Notes under the pieces: generated by a model
What the model was told of the DNA's origin: nothing
What the model saw: the letters and a program-made list of their open reading frames with translations, nothing else
The model's database searches: none
Part shown: positions 9,927 through 15,827 of the stretch, one piece after another
Layout: every line of letters begins with the position of its first letter
How positions within the stretch are numbered: the first letter of the stretch is position 1
Program-made: the position numbers and the translations under genes
Assembly (NCBI RefSeq): GCF_944390845.1
Contig: NZ_CALXRM010000033.1
Span: 1-33,479 of the forward strand
DNA: 33,479 bases
Source: an uncultured Brachyspira sp.
Lineage (GTDB): Bacteria; Spirochaetota; Brachyspiria; Brachyspirales; Brachyspiraceae
Direction: 5' to 3'

Positions 9927-11513
9927 ATGAAAAATACTAAATCAAGAATAGAAAAAATTATAAACTTACTATCACAAGGACTTTATGAGAGAGAAGAAAT
10001 TGTAGCATTAACTTTTCTTAGTGCTATTGCAGGAAAGCCAGTATTTTTATACGGCCCTCCCGGAACTGCAAAAAGCTTCATAGCAAAAAGAGTTTCATCA
10101 GCATTTAAAGATTCAAAATATTTTGGATATTTGATGCAAAGGTTTAGTACTCCTGAGGATATATTCGGGCCTATTAGTTTAGAAGAATTAAAGAATGATA
10201 AATATGTAAGAAAAATAGAAGGATATTTACCTGACAGTGATTTTGTATTTTTAGATGAAATTTGGAAAAGTACTCCAGCTATACTTAATACACTTTTAAC
10301 TATAATAAATGAAAGAGTTTTTAAAAATGGTGCTGAAGAAATAAAAGTTCCATTAAAGGCATTGATTTCAGCAAGTAATGAAACACCTCCAGAAGGTCAA
10401 GGGCTTGAAGCTTTATACGATAGATTTATTATGCGTTTGTTTGTTAGTCCTATGAAGAATAAGGAAAATTTTGAGAAGATACTGCAAAATACAGACTCTA
10501 GTTCATATATAAGTATTGATGATGAATTAAAAATTTCTAATGATGAATGGGTAAAAATAAGAGAAGAAGCTAATAATATAAAACTCTCAAGAGCTGTTAT
10601 TGATATTATTCATCATATAAAACTTTCAATAGAAAAATTCAATGAAGATAACAAAGATATAGCAATATATGTATCCGATAGAAGATGGCAGCATATTTCT
10701 TATTTATTAAAAATAGCAGCATATTTAAACAATAAAAAAGAAGTAGATATTTATGAAACTCTTTTAATTTCTAATTGTTTATGGAGTTTAGATGAACATA
10801 TTAATGTAGTAAAAAAGATAGTAGAGAATGCCATTAGAACATCATACAATTTCAATAATAAAGATATTAATTCTTGGAGAGAAAGTTTAAATAATATTCA
10901 AAAAAATATTGATAATGAATTTTATAATTTAGAAAAAACTTATGATACAGAAAACATTGATGATAAGCCTTATATTACAGCAACTTTAAATATAAATATT
11001 GATGGATATGGTAATAAAGGCGAAACAATGATTTATATACCTATAAAACAGTTAGAGAAAAAAGGATATTTTTATCCATTAGACATATCAAGAAATCAGA
11101 CAAAGAAATTTAGATGCAATTTTAACGGCACAGAAAAATGCACTGTAGAAATCAATTCCTCTACTTCAGTTAACGGTTTTGTATCAAATAAATTATCAAG
11201 AAATTATGAATTATTAATTGATATAGAGCCAGATTATTATATGAAAAAAGTTTCTTCAAAAAAAGTAAAAGAGGAAACTAAAAAAACATATTTAAATCTT
11301 ATAGACTCTTTAATAACAAGCATTGAAAATATAATAACAAATTTAAAAAATGATTTTGATTCAAATAAATTATCATCAAAAAGTATATTTATATCAGAAG
11401 AAAATTTTAATATATTTATTGATATGTTTGATTCTTATATAAATAATCTTGAAAGTGAAAAATTGAATGCAGAAAGATTAAAAAGTGAAATAGAAAATCA
11501 TGAAACAATTTGA
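9927..11513 (+). CDS. ravA: RavA-like MoxR AAA+ ATPase
   Basis: This is a hexameric AAA+ ATPase of the MoxR group, RavA branch. The sequence shows Walker A GPPGTAKS (43-50), Walker B FVFLDE (106-111), sensor-1 SASNE (148-152), and the RavA-like run EIWKSTPAILNTLLTIINER (111-130) followed by LEALYDRFIMRL (160-171) with arginine-finger candidates. The C-terminal 200 residues would form the triple-helical/LARA-like region. The length (528 aa) compares with 498 in E. coli. The stop overlaps the viaA start by 14 bases (ATGAAACAATTTGA), so the pair is translationally coupled. In E. coli RavA-ViaA acts on respiratory complexes and alters aminoglycoside sensitivity; the role in a spirochaete is open. 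The ribosome-binding site is weak. Confidence 0.9.
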   Translation: MKNTKSRIEKIINLLSQGLYEREEIVALTFLSAIAGKPVFLYGPPGTAKSFIAKRVSSAFKDSKYFGYLMQRFSTPEDIFGPISLEELKNDKYVRKIEGYLPDSDFVFLDEIWKSTPAILNTLLTIINERVFKNGAEEIKVPLKALISASNETPPEGQGLEALYDRFIMRLFVSPMKNKENFEKILQNTDSSSYISIDDELKISNDEWVKIREEANNIKLSRAVIDIIHHIKLSIEKFNEDNKDIAIYVSDRRWQHISYLLKIAAYLNNKKEVDIYETLLISNCLWSLDEHINVVKKIVENAIRTSYNFNNKDINSWRESLNNIQKNIDNEFYNLEKTYDTENIDDKPYITATLNINIDGYGNKGETMIYIPIKQLEKKGYFYPLDISRNQTKKFRCNFNGTEKCTVEINSSTSVNGFVSNKLSRNYELLIDIEPDYYMKKVSSKKVKEETKKTYLNLIDSLITSIENIITNLKNDFDSNKLSSKSIFISEENFNIFIDMFDSYINNLESEKLNAERLKSEIENHETI

Positions 11514-12912
11514 TTATGATTCTTATATGAATGAAATAAAGAAAACAGAAACCATTGCCAGAGGAGTTTTTAATGGTTCTTTTAATAATTTACAAGACAG
11601 CAGATTAGAAGAAGAACTTGAAGTAAAAATAACAAAATGGAAAAAAGATTTAAACGAATTTATAAATAATAATAATCCTTATGAAGAAAATAAAACAGAA
11701 TTAGAAATATCAATAAAAAAATTAAAAGATAAAAAAAAGAAAATTACAAAAGAAGATATAAAAAATGATTTAGATAATATTAGTATTTTATCAAATAATA
11801 TTGATATTAATTTTTGGAATGATAAATTAAATAATATTGAGAATCTTGATGTAATAAAGAATAATATTATTTCTTTATGGGAAAAAACTTATAGTAAAAA
11901 AAATAATGAATGGCTTGTTAATACTGTTAAACAAAAGAGATATAAATTTATTTCTGATATAGAATCCTGGATTCATCTAATCAAAAAATTAAAATATATG
12001 TCAAATATCTTAAGAATAAAAACAGGAGTCTTATGGGATTTTAGAGTAGGTGAGCTTGAAGAAGAAGATATTTCTTTATTATACAGATGGGTAAACTTTA
12101 TTAATGAGTATAAAGACATAGATATTATATGTGATGCTATGGGACGCAGAATTGATGCTGATAAGGCTATAAAAAATGTTGAATTTAAAAATACTTATTC
12201 TCATACAAATAAAAAAATAAGCTCTAAAGAAGAAATTGTAGGTATATACTTTTCTAAGGATATTGAAAATGTTGTACCGGAAGAACTTTCACTTTTATGC
12301 AATGAGGATAGTGAAAAGTTATTCAAATTAAAATATATAGAAAACAGGCTTATGTGTTTTGATAAAAGTGCTTATGTATTCAATGAAAATGAACAAAATA
12401 TGGTTAGAGCTGGATATAAGGACGGTAAAGGCGACATGATTATATGTATAGATACGAGCGGTTCTATGAAGGGTATTAGCGAATATATTGCCAAGGCTAT
12501 AATGTTAAAAATGGTTATGCAGGCTTTATCCGAAAATAGAAATGCTTATTTAATTAACTTCAGCACAGAAATACATACTTGCCGATTCTCCAAAAACAAC
12601 GGAATTGAAGATTTAATAAAATTTTTAAAACTTAGTTATCATGGAGGATCTGATATATATAAGGCACTTTATGAAGCTAATAGAATAATGAATACTTCAA
12701 GTTTCAAAAATGCTGATGTTTTAGTATTATCCGACTTTATAATGGAAGATATGGCAGATAATTTAGTACAGATATGCAATAAGCAAAAAAATAATGGCAA
12801 TAAATTTTTTGCAGTATCTATAGGAAAATTTCCATTTGGTTATTCATATAAAAAAGTATTTAACAAACACTGGATATTTGATATAGATAATGGAATTAAA
12901 AAAATTTATTAG
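11500..12912 (+). CDS. viaA: ViaA-like von Willebrand factor A domain protein
   Basis: This 470-aa cytoplasmic partner of RavA has a helical, charged N-terminal half (1-300) and a C-terminal VWA domain starting at about 312. The metal-ion-dependent adhesion site is intact: DTSGS (318-322), then the GGSD loop (382-385) and VLSDF downstream. The stretch SGSMKG...AKAIMLKMVMQALSENRNAYLINFSTEI closely follows the ViaA pattern, and length matches E. coli ViaA (483 aa). It overlaps ravA by 14 bases. Its stop codon TAG shares two bases with the stop codon of the convergent YidC-sulfatase gene, with no terminator between them. Antisense overlap of the two 3' ends is therefore expected. Confidence 0.9.
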   Translation: MKQFDYDSYMNEIKKTETIARGVFNGSFNNLQDSRLEEELEVKITKWKKDLNEFINNNNPYEENKTELEISIKKLKDKKKKITKEDIKNDLDNISILSNNIDINFWNDKLNNIENLDVIKNNIISLWEKTYSKKNNEWLVNTVKQKRYKFISDIESWIHLIKKLKYMSNILRIKTGVLWDFRVGELEEEDISLLYRWVNFINEYKDIDIICDAMGRRIDADKAIKNVEFKNTYSHTNKKISSKEEIVGIYFSKDIENVVPEELSLLCNEDSEKLFKLKYIENRLMCFDKSAYVFNENEQNMVRAGYKDGKGDMIICIDTSGSMKGISEYIAKAIMLKMVMQALSENRNAYLINFSTEIHTCRFSKNNGIEDLIKFLKLSYHGGSDIYKALYEANRIMNTSSFKNADVLVLSDFIMEDMADNLVQICNKQKNNGNKFFAVSIGKFPFGYSYKKVFNKHWIFDIDNGIKKIY

Positions 12913-15701
12913 TTATTTACATTTACAATAGTCCAATTAGTTTTTTCAAATATATTATCCTTCACGATAAAATATCTATTGAAATTATATTTCATTTTAT
13001 AATTAGCATTTGGATCTCCTTTTCCTCCAGCTATTTCTATTGCCATAATACCATTAGTTTTCATATCATTTGTTATTAATTTACTTGTAAATGGATTAAT
13101 TGGATTTTCTAAATGTTTTGAAGCTAAATATGGAACATCAGCTATCGTCATAAATGTATTATTTGATACTATATTTCCTTTGGAATTTATGTCTTTAAAA
13201 TATAACATTGAATTAAATATTTTAAACATTCCCATTTCATTTTTATCAAACACTGATGGAGAAAAATATGCTGAATGATCTGAAACTATTATTATTTTAG
13301 TATTATCATATACTTTATTTTCTTTTAAAAAATTGAAGAAATTTGCTAATTCTTTAAAAGAAGCTACTGTAGAATAATAAGTTCTTGCAGAAAAGTCGCC
13401 TCCAAAATATTCTAAATCTTCATTCGGAACTTCTTCTATATTTATAGAAGGTATAAAATTAGAATTATAATTAAAAGGTTCATGTGTACTATCACTATGT
13501 ACAATATTGAAATAGTTTCCTGTTTCATTTATTTTAGTTAAATTTGTTAATGCTTGAAGTAATGCAAATTCTTGTATGGACTTACCAACTATAGTTAAAT
13601 TTCTGCCTGAATTAGGTATGAGCCAGTCATTTTTAGAATATAATTGTGCTCTCAAGAAAACAGGTATCATTCTAAATAATGCAAATCTTACAGCTCTGTT
13701 TTGATTATTTTCTTCAATATTTTTTTTATGAAAAGTAGTACTATTTGTATTAGAATCATTAAGCAAATTTTTTAATTCTTCTGCAATCATACTGTCATTT
13801 TGATTGTAGGCTTTTATATTTGTATAGCCTTTAAATATTGTTAAATCAGGAATCCAAGAAAAATTGGCAAAAGCAGGATCAAAGGTCATAGACTCATATC
13901 TATTATTAACAAATAATTGCGGCATCATAAGCAATGATTCATTATGCTTATCTTTTAATACATATTTTTCATTTAATTCAAATGGAGCGTATTCGTATCC
14001 TCCATATAAAGCTTGTATACTTCCTATAGTACCTGCTCCTAATGATGTTGTATTTGGATACCATATAAAACCATCAAATTCTTTTTTTATTTCTGGAAAT
14101 CTTTCAAGAACTATATTGCCAAATTCTGGATTTCCTCTGTCCAATATTATAATAAATATATTTGTTCCTGTTTTAGAGAAATTGAATATATTATAATCAT
14201 TATTTGAATTATTAATTGATGATATTTGCAATAATTTTTTCTGTTCTTTATTTATTTTTGTGAAATCAAATATAGATATAGCAAGTAAACTTATTGTTAT
14301 GATTATTAATATATTGAACAGAAAATTTATTAAGTTCTTTTTTATTATAATTACTGTAAGTGATAATATTACTAAAATTAATATAATATTTAATATGATT
14401 TGTTTAGCATTTGGTATTAACAAGTATTCTAATTCAAATTTAAAATTACTTGATATATATCCATAATCTATTACCATTATAAATGTATTAGCTAATGATA
14501 TTAGAGATATCAATATAAAAATAAAAGTTATATTATTTTTAAATTTTTCTGAAAACAAAAAGTATAGGAATATTGGATATACAAAAAATATACCTACATA
14601 TTTGAAAAACACAGTAAATATAATACTAAATGGATTTTCAAATTCCTGACCAGAAGATGCTATAAGAGATGTTAGTATAAATAAACCAGATAAAATTGTT
14701 ATAGTTATCAGTGATGATATGAATATTTTTAATCTTAGTTTGCTTTCTATTTTTAGAAAATCTAATATTTTCTTTTTGTTTAGAATTATTGCTAACACTA
14801 TAAGAGAAAGAATAAACCATATTAATAATAAATCTTTATAAGTTTTAACATGTATAATAAATGCTCTTAAAAATGTATATTGAACTGATTTATTTATTAC
14901 TGTATTTCTTAAAAAGTATAATATAGTCATTATAAATATTAAAACAGTGTATAAACAATATATTATTTTTGATACTAGAATAAATATTTTATTATTCGAT
15001 ACCTTATTTATTATACTTTTTATTTTTTCAATATTTATTAAAACTATATTTTTGAAAAATGAAAATGCACAGTTAATAGTCCAATATAGTAAGAGTATAG
15101 CAGGAGAATTATATAGAAATACTAAAAAGAATAAACTCATTAAAAATATTGGTATAGATTGTTTAAAAGTTAATTTTTTAGAATATACGAATGTAGAGGC
15201 TAATGAAAAAGCTGTCATTACAAATGGAAGTAAATTTATATAATAATTTCCAATATGAATTATTTTATCCGGATCGCCTAAACTTTTTATAAGCCAAAAA
15301 CTTTCGGTATTTGCTCCGCTCAAACTAGTAAAAAAATTATATCCGGCTAAGAAAAAAGGTATTTGTATTAATAATCCTAATACACCTCTGAAAGCATAAA
15401 TTGTTTTATATCCATTAATTCTTTGACATGTCCTTATTAATAGATAAGCCTGATCCCCTTTATATACTGCTTTAATATTATCTATCATAGGCTTCATTTT
15501 GCTTTGCATATCTCTTTCTTTCTGCTGCCATTTTTCTGCTATATTATATAAAGGAAGTGATAATATATTAATAATTAAACTTACCAAAATAACACTTACA
15601 GTATAGCTGCTTTGTGTTAATACTTTAAAATAATAGAATATTGTTTCTAATAAAAATTCTATTGGGTATATAGTTAAACTATATATAATATCACCAAACA
15701 T
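12909..15701 (-). CDS. YidC/Oxa1-like domain fused to a polytopic region and a sulfatase/LtaS-like domain
   Basis: This 930-aa protein joins three parts. Residues 1-220 follow the YidC/Oxa1/Alb3 plan: a first span, a cytoplasmic hairpin with charged WQQKERDMQSKMKPMI (58-73), and four further spans ending in LYWTINCAFSFFKNIVL. Residues 240-480 are about seven more membrane spans. Residues 510-930 are an extracytoplasmic alkaline-phosphatase/sulfatase-fold domain: IIILDRGN (Asp521), PNTTSLGAG (nucleophile candidate Thr551/552), HSDSTHEPF (His740) and VSDHS (Asp808-His809). These line up with the metal ligands of LtaS-type phosphoglycerol transferases. In the YidC part the groove arginine of Gram-positive YidC appears replaced by Asn45. 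GAGGT precedes the ATG. It may modify envelope polymers; an insertase role is uncertain. Confidence 0.85.
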   Translation of the reverse strand: MFGDIIYSLTIYPIEFLLETIFYYFKVLTQSSYTVSVILVSLIINILSLPLYNIAEKWQQKERDMQSKMKPMIDNIKAVYKGDQAYLLIRTCQRINGYKTIYAFRGVLGLLIQIPFFLAGYNFFTSLSGANTESFWLIKSLGDPDKIIHIGNYYINLLPFVMTAFSLASTFVYSKKLTFKQSIPIFLMSLFFLVFLYNSPAILLLYWTINCAFSFFKNIVLINIEKIKSIINKVSNNKIFILVSKIIYCLYTVLIFIMTILYFLRNTVINKSVQYTFLRAFIIHVKTYKDLLLIWFILSLIVLAIILNKKKILDFLKIESKLRLKIFISSLITITILSGLFILTSLIASSGQEFENPFSIIFTVFFKYVGIFFVYPIFLYFLFSEKFKNNITFIFILISLISLANTFIMVIDYGYISSNFKFELEYLLIPNAKQIILNIILILVILSLTVIIIKKNLINFLFNILIIITISLLAISIFDFTKINKEQKKLLQISSINNSNNDYNIFNFSKTGTNIFIIILDRGNPEFGNIVLERFPEIKKEFDGFIWYPNTTSLGAGTIGSIQALYGGYEYAPFELNEKYVLKDKHNESLLMMPQLFVNNRYESMTFDPAFANFSWIPDLTIFKGYTNIKAYNQNDSMIAEELKNLLNDSNTNSTTFHKKNIEENNQNRAVRFALFRMIPVFLRAQLYSKNDWLIPNSGRNLTIVGKSIQEFALLQALTNLTKINETGNYFNIVHSDSTHEPFNYNSNFIPSINIEEVPNEDLEYFGGDFSARTYYSTVASFKELANFFNFLKENKVYDNTKIIIVSDHSAYFSPSVFDKNEMGMFKIFNSMLYFKDINSKGNIVSNNTFMTIADVPYLASKHLENPINPFTSKLITNDMKTNGIMAIEIAGGKGDPNANYKMKYNFNRYFIVKDNIFEKTNWTIVNVNN

Positions 15702-15827
15702 TGTAATACCTCATAAAATAATTTTTATATTAATATATTAACAAGATTATTCCATATAAAATACAATTTAATCATTTAACATAGTAATTATTAGTATTAT
15801 TATGGTAAAACTAAATAAAGTCAAGTA

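Follow-up and report, generated by a model that had tools for sequence, protein, structure and literature searches.

In this work, we have analysed by profile searches, structure prediction and genome surveys a gene of an uncultured Brachyspira sp., contained in a window of 33,479 nucleotides (contig NZ_CALXRM010000033.1 of assembly GCF_944390845.1; the window is the whole stretch of DNA that was analysed). Our results show that this gene codes for one protein of 930 residues in which a YidC/Oxa1-like domain is followed by a second block of membrane helices and by an extracytoplasmic domain of the alkaline phosphatase superfamily. The fusion is found in two phyla, and members of the family lie beside genes for the activation of amines and phosphonates. 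We propose, with a probability of about 0.5, that it is a membrane transferase which, outside the membrane, decorates surface glycans or lipids with phospho- or phosphono-amine groups, with its YidC domain serving as a conduit. The features on which this proposal is built are the following.

12909..15701, minus strand: whole gene of the 930-residue YidC-like/alkaline-phosphatase-superfamily fusion (open reading frame, Pfam, single-frame orthologues)
15709..15712, minus strand: likely ribosome-binding site GAGG, from sequence
15036..15701, minus strand: YidC/Oxa1-like domain, residues 1-222
15567..15569, minus strand: Asn45 codon, at the place of the YidC groove Arg/Lys
14205..14987, minus strand: second membrane block, residues 239-499, seven helices (model of 1-500, loop charges)
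12927..14171, minus strand: extracytoplasmic alkaline-phosphatase-superfamily domain, residues 511-925
14139..14141, minus strand: Asp521, predicted metal ligand
14028..14030, minus strand: Thr558, predicted nucleophile
13482..13484, minus strand: His740, predicted phosphate-binding histidine
13275..13280, minus strand: Asp808-His809, predicted metal ligands

The extracytoplasmic domain, already recognized in the original prediction, reaches the Pfam Sulfatase family over residues 528-815 (30.3 bits, cut-off 25). In a fold search residues 511-930 matched LtaP (4uop_A, Z 20.9), LtaS (2w5q, Z 20.1) and also YejM, within a range of about 20-22, and Foldseek with the whole chain gave MCR-1 as the best match. 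The full protein found no match among PDB sequences with phmmer; the domain profiles did match PDB. Five residues, D521, T558, H740, D808 and H809, are invariant in 21/21 Brachyspira, 42/42 spirochaete and 64/64 two-phyla sequences, Asp808-His809 being aligned with the DHG of PDB sulfatases. Asp521, His740 and Asp808-His809 had been put forward as ligands before and are retained; Thr551/552, proposed with them, is a variable position among the relatives, and the invariant nucleophile would be Thr558. The C/S-x-P-x-R signature of formylglycine sulfatases is present in none of the 64 members, and His740 and His809 are the only histidines conserved among them, which leaves no second metal site such as that of two-metal phosphatases. 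A threonine nucleophile combined with a one-metal site is the residue set of the LtaS and EptA transferases. The assignment of the fusion to this type, and not to the two-metal phosphatases or the formylglycine sulfatases, is well supported by the alignment.

The EptA/MCR, LtaS/LtaP and PbgA/YejM proteins are among the closest known systems. In them, too, an extracytoplasmic alkaline-phosphatase-superfamily domain comes after the membrane helices, and it has a threonine nucleophile and a one-metal ligand set. The fusion differs from them in its low identity (8-15%), in the addition of an N-terminal YidC fold and two spans, and in the linkage of its gene to a CDP (cytidine diphosphate)-amine/PF04464 pathway. 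The first metal ligand in LtaS and EptA is a glutamate, and the fusion has an aspartate.

The N-terminal part of the window protein is a member of the Oxa1/YidC superfamily. It passes the cut-off of Pfam 60KD_IMP (PF02096) over residues 33-221 (72.8 bits against 35), its domain profile matched PDB sequence 3wo6 at 3.7e-9, and the core fold with its cytoplasmic hairpin is present. The predicted structure of residues 1-222 superposes on the B. halodurans YidC (3wo7_A; Z 18.1, root-mean-square deviation [rmsd] 3.0 A, 208 residues) and on the E. coli YidC (6al2_A; Z 17.6), which agrees with the Oxa1-type fold first placed at residues 1-220. For TIGR03592, the canonical YidC subfamily, the window protein scores 77.3 bits, below the cut-off of 84.3; a split relative (L068:10709-11374) scores 94. 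As occurs in the YidC/Oxa1/Alb3 insertases, the groove position is polar and an aromatic residue, W207 in 64/64 members (placement by eye), stands at the place of E. coli Y517. Unlike these insertases (PF02096, TIGR03592; 3wo7, 6al2), the fusions have Asn, Ser, Thr or Gln in 64/64 cases at the position of the groove Arg/Lys (Asn45 in the window protein, Arg in BhYidC2), they are devoid of the large periplasmic domain, and their YidC part continues into seven further helices and an enzyme. Two canonical YidC proteins, that of the own genome and that of Treponema bryantii, have K at the groove position.

The E. coli YidC can do without its groove arginine (R366) as long as position 517 holds a hydrophilic or aromatic residue, and N45 together with the aromatic W207 corresponds to the pairing that keeps the E. 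coli groove hydrophilic (PMC8920935). Because W207 stands at the place of residue 517, the groove of the fusions probably stays hydrophilic too. Loss of the arginine was not used as a sign of lost insertase function, since the published mutants show that this residue can be dispensable (PMC8920935), and it was rejected as a mark peculiar to the fusions because the canonical YidC proteins of two Clostridia (L178, L179) also have Asn at this position, which has been said to carry a strictly positive charge in every homologue. S41, D145, Y206-W207, N210 and K217 are invariant across the 64 members. The YidC part is the most constrained of the three protein parts: in syntenic Brachyspira orthologues, the ratio of nonsynonymous to synonymous substitution rates (dN/dS) is 0.05-0.10 for it, 0.15-0.19 for the middle part and 0.19-0.22 for the enzyme.

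Between both domains, a further block of spans had been expected at residues 240-480, and the models place seven helices there (239-263, 276-309, 320-349, 357-382, 385-407, 432-454 and 458-499). The full chain, modelled with AlphaFold2 from an alignment of 21 relatives, had a mean predicted local distance difference test score (pLDDT) of 77, and most of the enzyme domain exceeded 80; residues 1-500, modelled again with 41 diverse relatives, had a pLDDT of 85.3 and a predicted template modelling score (pTM) of 0.77. Since the YidC core ends in the cytoplasm and seven spans follow, the enzyme domain should lie outside, and the loop charges mostly agree with a cytoplasmic start and an external end of the second block. 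A fold search with residues 1-500 found only YidC at high Z and nothing clear for 239-499, a part that was not folded alone. Five of the helices fall within 320-499, to be compared with the five-helix membrane domain of EptA and LtaS; PbgA (6xlp) aligns over 317-930, but with an rmsd of 13.3.

What does the enzyme work with? An indication comes from the gene neighbourhood. A gene of about 418 codons, whose product starts with a hydrophobic segment and matches PF04464 (CDP-glycerol:poly(glycerophosphate) glycerophosphotransferase), is present in 23 copies in 18 of 20 spirochaete loci, 18 copies being within 100 bp of the fusion. PF04464 occurs in 61/65 genomes with the fusion versus 19/231 others (Fisher p = 4e-41, in a test that ignores the kinship of the genomes). 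The single PF04464 gene of the own genome adjoins a third copy of the fusion, beside EutH and two nucleotidyltransferase-choline kinase fusions. Genes for aminoethylphosphonate (AEP), namely phosphoenolpyruvate (PEP) mutase (TIGR02320), phosphonopyruvate decarboxylase (TIGR03297), the AEP transaminase PhnW (TIGR03301) and PntC-like fusions, occur in both phyla, in 25 of the 80 loci scanned. Such neighbours, and nucleotidyltransferase-aminotransferase fusions, are found in other Brachyspira, Treponema and Clostridia loci, and the commonest other neighbours are glycosyltransferases and sugar-nucleotide enzymes.

This setting resembles the Lic/Pnt tailoring pathways (Rice et al. 2019, PMC6697681), in that choline/ethanolamine kinase and cytidylyltransferase genes, or those for PEP mutase, decarboxylase, PhnW and PntC, lie beside the fusion gene; for the family this is the same locus, but not for the window copy. 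It differs in that the candidate transfer step would consist of the PF04464 gene and the YidC-enzyme fusion, neither of which is named in the text of PMC6697681. No LicD (no PF04991 match) and no PEP mutase were found in the own genome, which would therefore have a CDP-amine route without the usual transferase. In Treponema denticola, PntC makes CMP (cytidine monophosphate)-AEP, the later steps being described as unknown, as are the last steps of bacterial phosphonate tailoring (PMC6697681).

We propose the following mechanism, in which the activation and transferase steps are suggested by family assignments and gene linkage. An amine or phosphonate would be imported or synthesised and then activated with CTP (cytidine triphosphate). 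The membrane-anchored PF04464 enzyme, whose gene adjoins most copies of the fusion, would take the group from its CDP or CMP form and load it onto a lipid or a growing polymer. The YidC-like domain, with a polar groove open to lipid, may give the head group of a lipid-linked donor or acceptor a way through the membrane to the active site. The C-terminal domain would use a single metal ion (Asp521, Thr558, Asp808, His809), form a covalent phospho-Thr558 intermediate and pass the group from the lipid-linked donor to a surface glycan or glycolipid. The group moved could be phosphocholine or phosphoethanolamine in the own organism and aminoethylphosphonate in many relatives. Our data show the domains, the set of catalytic residues, the conservation, a single origin of the fusion and the gene linkage, and there is good support for the transferase class and for the pathway; which donor and acceptor are used, in which order the steps run and that the YidC domain acts as a conduit is what we infer. 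The first suggestion of an envelope-polymer-modifying enzyme is supported by profiles, folds, conservation and gene neighbourhood, as are the two-domain arrangement and, except for the nucleophile, the metal-enzyme assignment; the recruitment or insertion of substrate by the YidC part, suggested along with them, is a possible role.

Several points weigh against this proposal. EptA and LtaS draw their group from phosphatidylethanolamine or phosphatidylglycerol and need no CDP-amine partner, and the extra cytosolic PF04464 enzyme alone could build a glycerol-phosphate polymer. The window copy is by itself, flanked by a MoxR/VWA pair and murI, and none of the pathway genes adjoins it. The neighbour genes vary, so that more than one substrate is likely. 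The YidC-like domain is tied to lipid transport by analogy, as lipids are scrambled in vitro by Oxa1 proteins, among them the E. coli YidC, which does so in proteoliposomes (PMC10491306), and the structure model gives no substrate; a scramblase-like conduit is a tentative idea to which we give clearly less than even odds.

The YidC-like domain might instead be a working insertase dedicated to its own enzyme or to the membrane-anchored partner, fused for efficient insertion. Its full YidC fold and strong purifying selection would suit this role, and the polar groove residue with aromatic W207 is compatible with insertase function. We consider it unlikely, because a canonical YidC is also present in every genome checked (in the own genome it has 620 residues, lies on another contig and is 24% identical to the fused domain), the groove Arg/Lys is absent in 64/64 members, and there is no reason for one enzyme family in two phyla to need an insertase of its own.

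A second alternative starts from the enzyme: an LtaS-like polymerase could build, out of phosphatidylglycerol, a chain of poly(glycerol phosphate) or of a similar teichoic-acid-like kind. The PF04464 partner would then serve the same pathway as TagB/TagF do, priming or polymerising the chain. The fold match to LtaS and LtaP and the naming of PF04464 for CDP-glycerol glycerophosphotransferases fit it. It is made quite improbable by the nearby activation genes, which are choline/ethanolamine kinases and those of AEP synthesis, and by NCBIfam, in which the window protein reaches no LtaS family. Similarly low are the chances of a structural or docking module that keeps the enzyme, or else its PF04464 partner, membrane-bound, which would be consistent with the lost groove charge and with an activity of the domain that is a prediction only. 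A passive anchor would hardly need the residues invariant in 64 members, nor the lowest dN/dS of the three parts (0.05-0.10 versus about 0.2). The original prediction had also considered a YidC domain turned to structural use, and a purely structural role is disfavoured in a domain that evolves most slowly and keeps a polar residue in its groove.

The C-terminal domain could also be a hydrolase, a phosphodiesterase or sulfatase trimming or recycling surface groups: the fold search with residues 511-930 lists many sulfatases and phosphonate monoester hydrolases at Z scores similar to those of the transferases, and the Pfam family is named Sulfatase. The missing formylglycine signature and second metal site described above, together with linked genes that are biosynthetic and not degradative, leave this with a small chance. 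Finally, a joining of neighbouring genes by sequencing or assembly error, named at the outset as a possible refutation, is excluded because independent assemblies from dozens of species in two phyla, complete chromosomes included, carry the same single-frame architecture; we found no point in its favour and count it as already refuted.

The reading frame is intact, on the minus strand (which had not been specified before), with its ATG at 15701 and its stop at 12909; the plus strand of 12909-15701 has many stops. By inspection, GAGG lies 7 nt upstream of the ATG, and the stop codon overlaps that of a convergent VWA-protein gene (11500-12912).

The arrangement had at first been noted as an unfamiliar one, which misjudged its rarity, and it is no one-off: the searches with both HMMs (60KD_IMP, Sulfatase), the full-chain structure prediction and the survey of spirochaete and other genomes confirmed the fused order as that of a widespread family in two phyla. 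The own genome has a second full-length copy (892 residues, 44% identical) and a third with the enzyme part only, at a contig end. Treponema bryantii, a commensal of the rumen, has two copies. Relatives occur in 15 of 26 Brachyspira genomes, up to several per genome, and strong matches with the architecture of about 900 residues in 65 of 296 sampled Spirochaetota genomes (from 80 raw matches at 1e-5, 15 weak ones were read as generic sulfatases and left out). A wider scan of contigs gave at least 534 relatives, the best 80 of which belong to Spirochaetota and Bacillota (Lachnospiraceae, Oscillospiraceae, Mogibacterium, Hespellia and others); 78 of these 80 loci have YidC-like sequence in the same open reading frame, a few of the 78 with no more than its tail where the contig ends or the frame is broken. 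The fusion is carried by 8 of 291 genomes in the (Clostridia-type) class to which one Lachnospiraceae genome belongs. No relative of the full protein was found in the plasmid and phage collections, so a plasmid or phage origin is unsupported.

In a tree, the fused YidC domains group on a single branch, separated with 100/100 support from five canonical YidC proteins (the canonical branches being few and long), and the distance matrices of the YidC and enzyme domains agree (r = 0.73, no permutation above 0.18), as expected if a single fusion event was followed by joint descent of both domains. Both halves are of known kinds; we found the fusion, its spread and its linkage described nowhere in the open-licence literature, and no YidC-sulfatase or YidC-phosphoethanolamine-transferase fusion there either, which is weak evidence of absence. 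It is possible, although we hold it rather doubtful, that a branch of Oxa1/YidC left protein insertion and, in fusion with the enzyme by which they are used, became dedicated to carrying lipid-linked phospho- or phosphono-amine groups through the membrane. If true, this branch would supply the missing transfer step by which spirochaetes and gut Clostridia carry out phosphonate and phosphocholine tailoring. Little is known of the surface chemistry of spirochaetes, and through its linkage to choline, ethanolamine and aminoethylphosphonate activation the fusion gives concrete candidate enzymes. With it one can also test, on a natural example, whether the substrates served by an insertase fold can be lipid-linked instead of proteins, a question raised by the lipid scrambling of insertases (PMC10491306).

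At the window locus, the own genome and four relatives have the fusion gene between the MoxR/VWA pair and murI. The VWA gene directly adjoins murI in 7 of 9 other Brachyspira genomes examined, so the window copy is a single-gene accessory presence/absence at a conserved site. An orthologue 67% identical to it, in genome G003, lies 35 bp from a PF04464 gene.

Some observations concern the partner genes. The PF04464 partners (L066:10123-11388 and homologues) carry in their N-terminal hydrophobic segment the motif YIDPGTGSMLFSILIG, a mark of the subfamily, and in a Hespellia metagenome-assembled genome (L162:5913-8078) the partner has 721 residues, about 300 more than usual. Beside EutH in the own genome (C39; L076:5400-9518), the two tandem nucleotidyltransferase-choline/ethanolamine kinase fusions have 485 and 486 residues, a LicC-LicA-type arrangement in one chain. 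A fusion of 600-660 residues between a nucleotidyltransferase and a class I/II (HisC/CobD-like) aminotransferase, found repeatedly next to members of the family (L060:5360-7351, L137:7872-9671, L175:727-2529 and others), may make and activate phosphoethanolamine or aminopropanol phosphate, and is distinct from the PhnW-type PntC fusion.

Other observations concern the fusion itself. Apparent gene splits in G173, G103 and G591, for which frameshift, decay or assembly error are possible, were left out. In G173 (L068:9498-19901), the YidC-like part and the membrane-plus-enzyme part are separate adjacent open reading frames (221+664 and 367+578 residues, a third pair being decayed) with PF04464 genes between them, and these may be natural splits or frameshifts. 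A divergent subfamily of 954-975 residues, 22% identical to the window protein (L062:1826-4690, L073:15347-18274), occupies the same loci as ordinary members and has a weak match to the LtaS family NF053595. In G146 (L055:8480-12720), a small cassette, with an ABC-type ATPase and three homologous proteins of about 290 residues among its products, has a copy of the fusion on either side, and the YidC-like domains of these two copies are identical.

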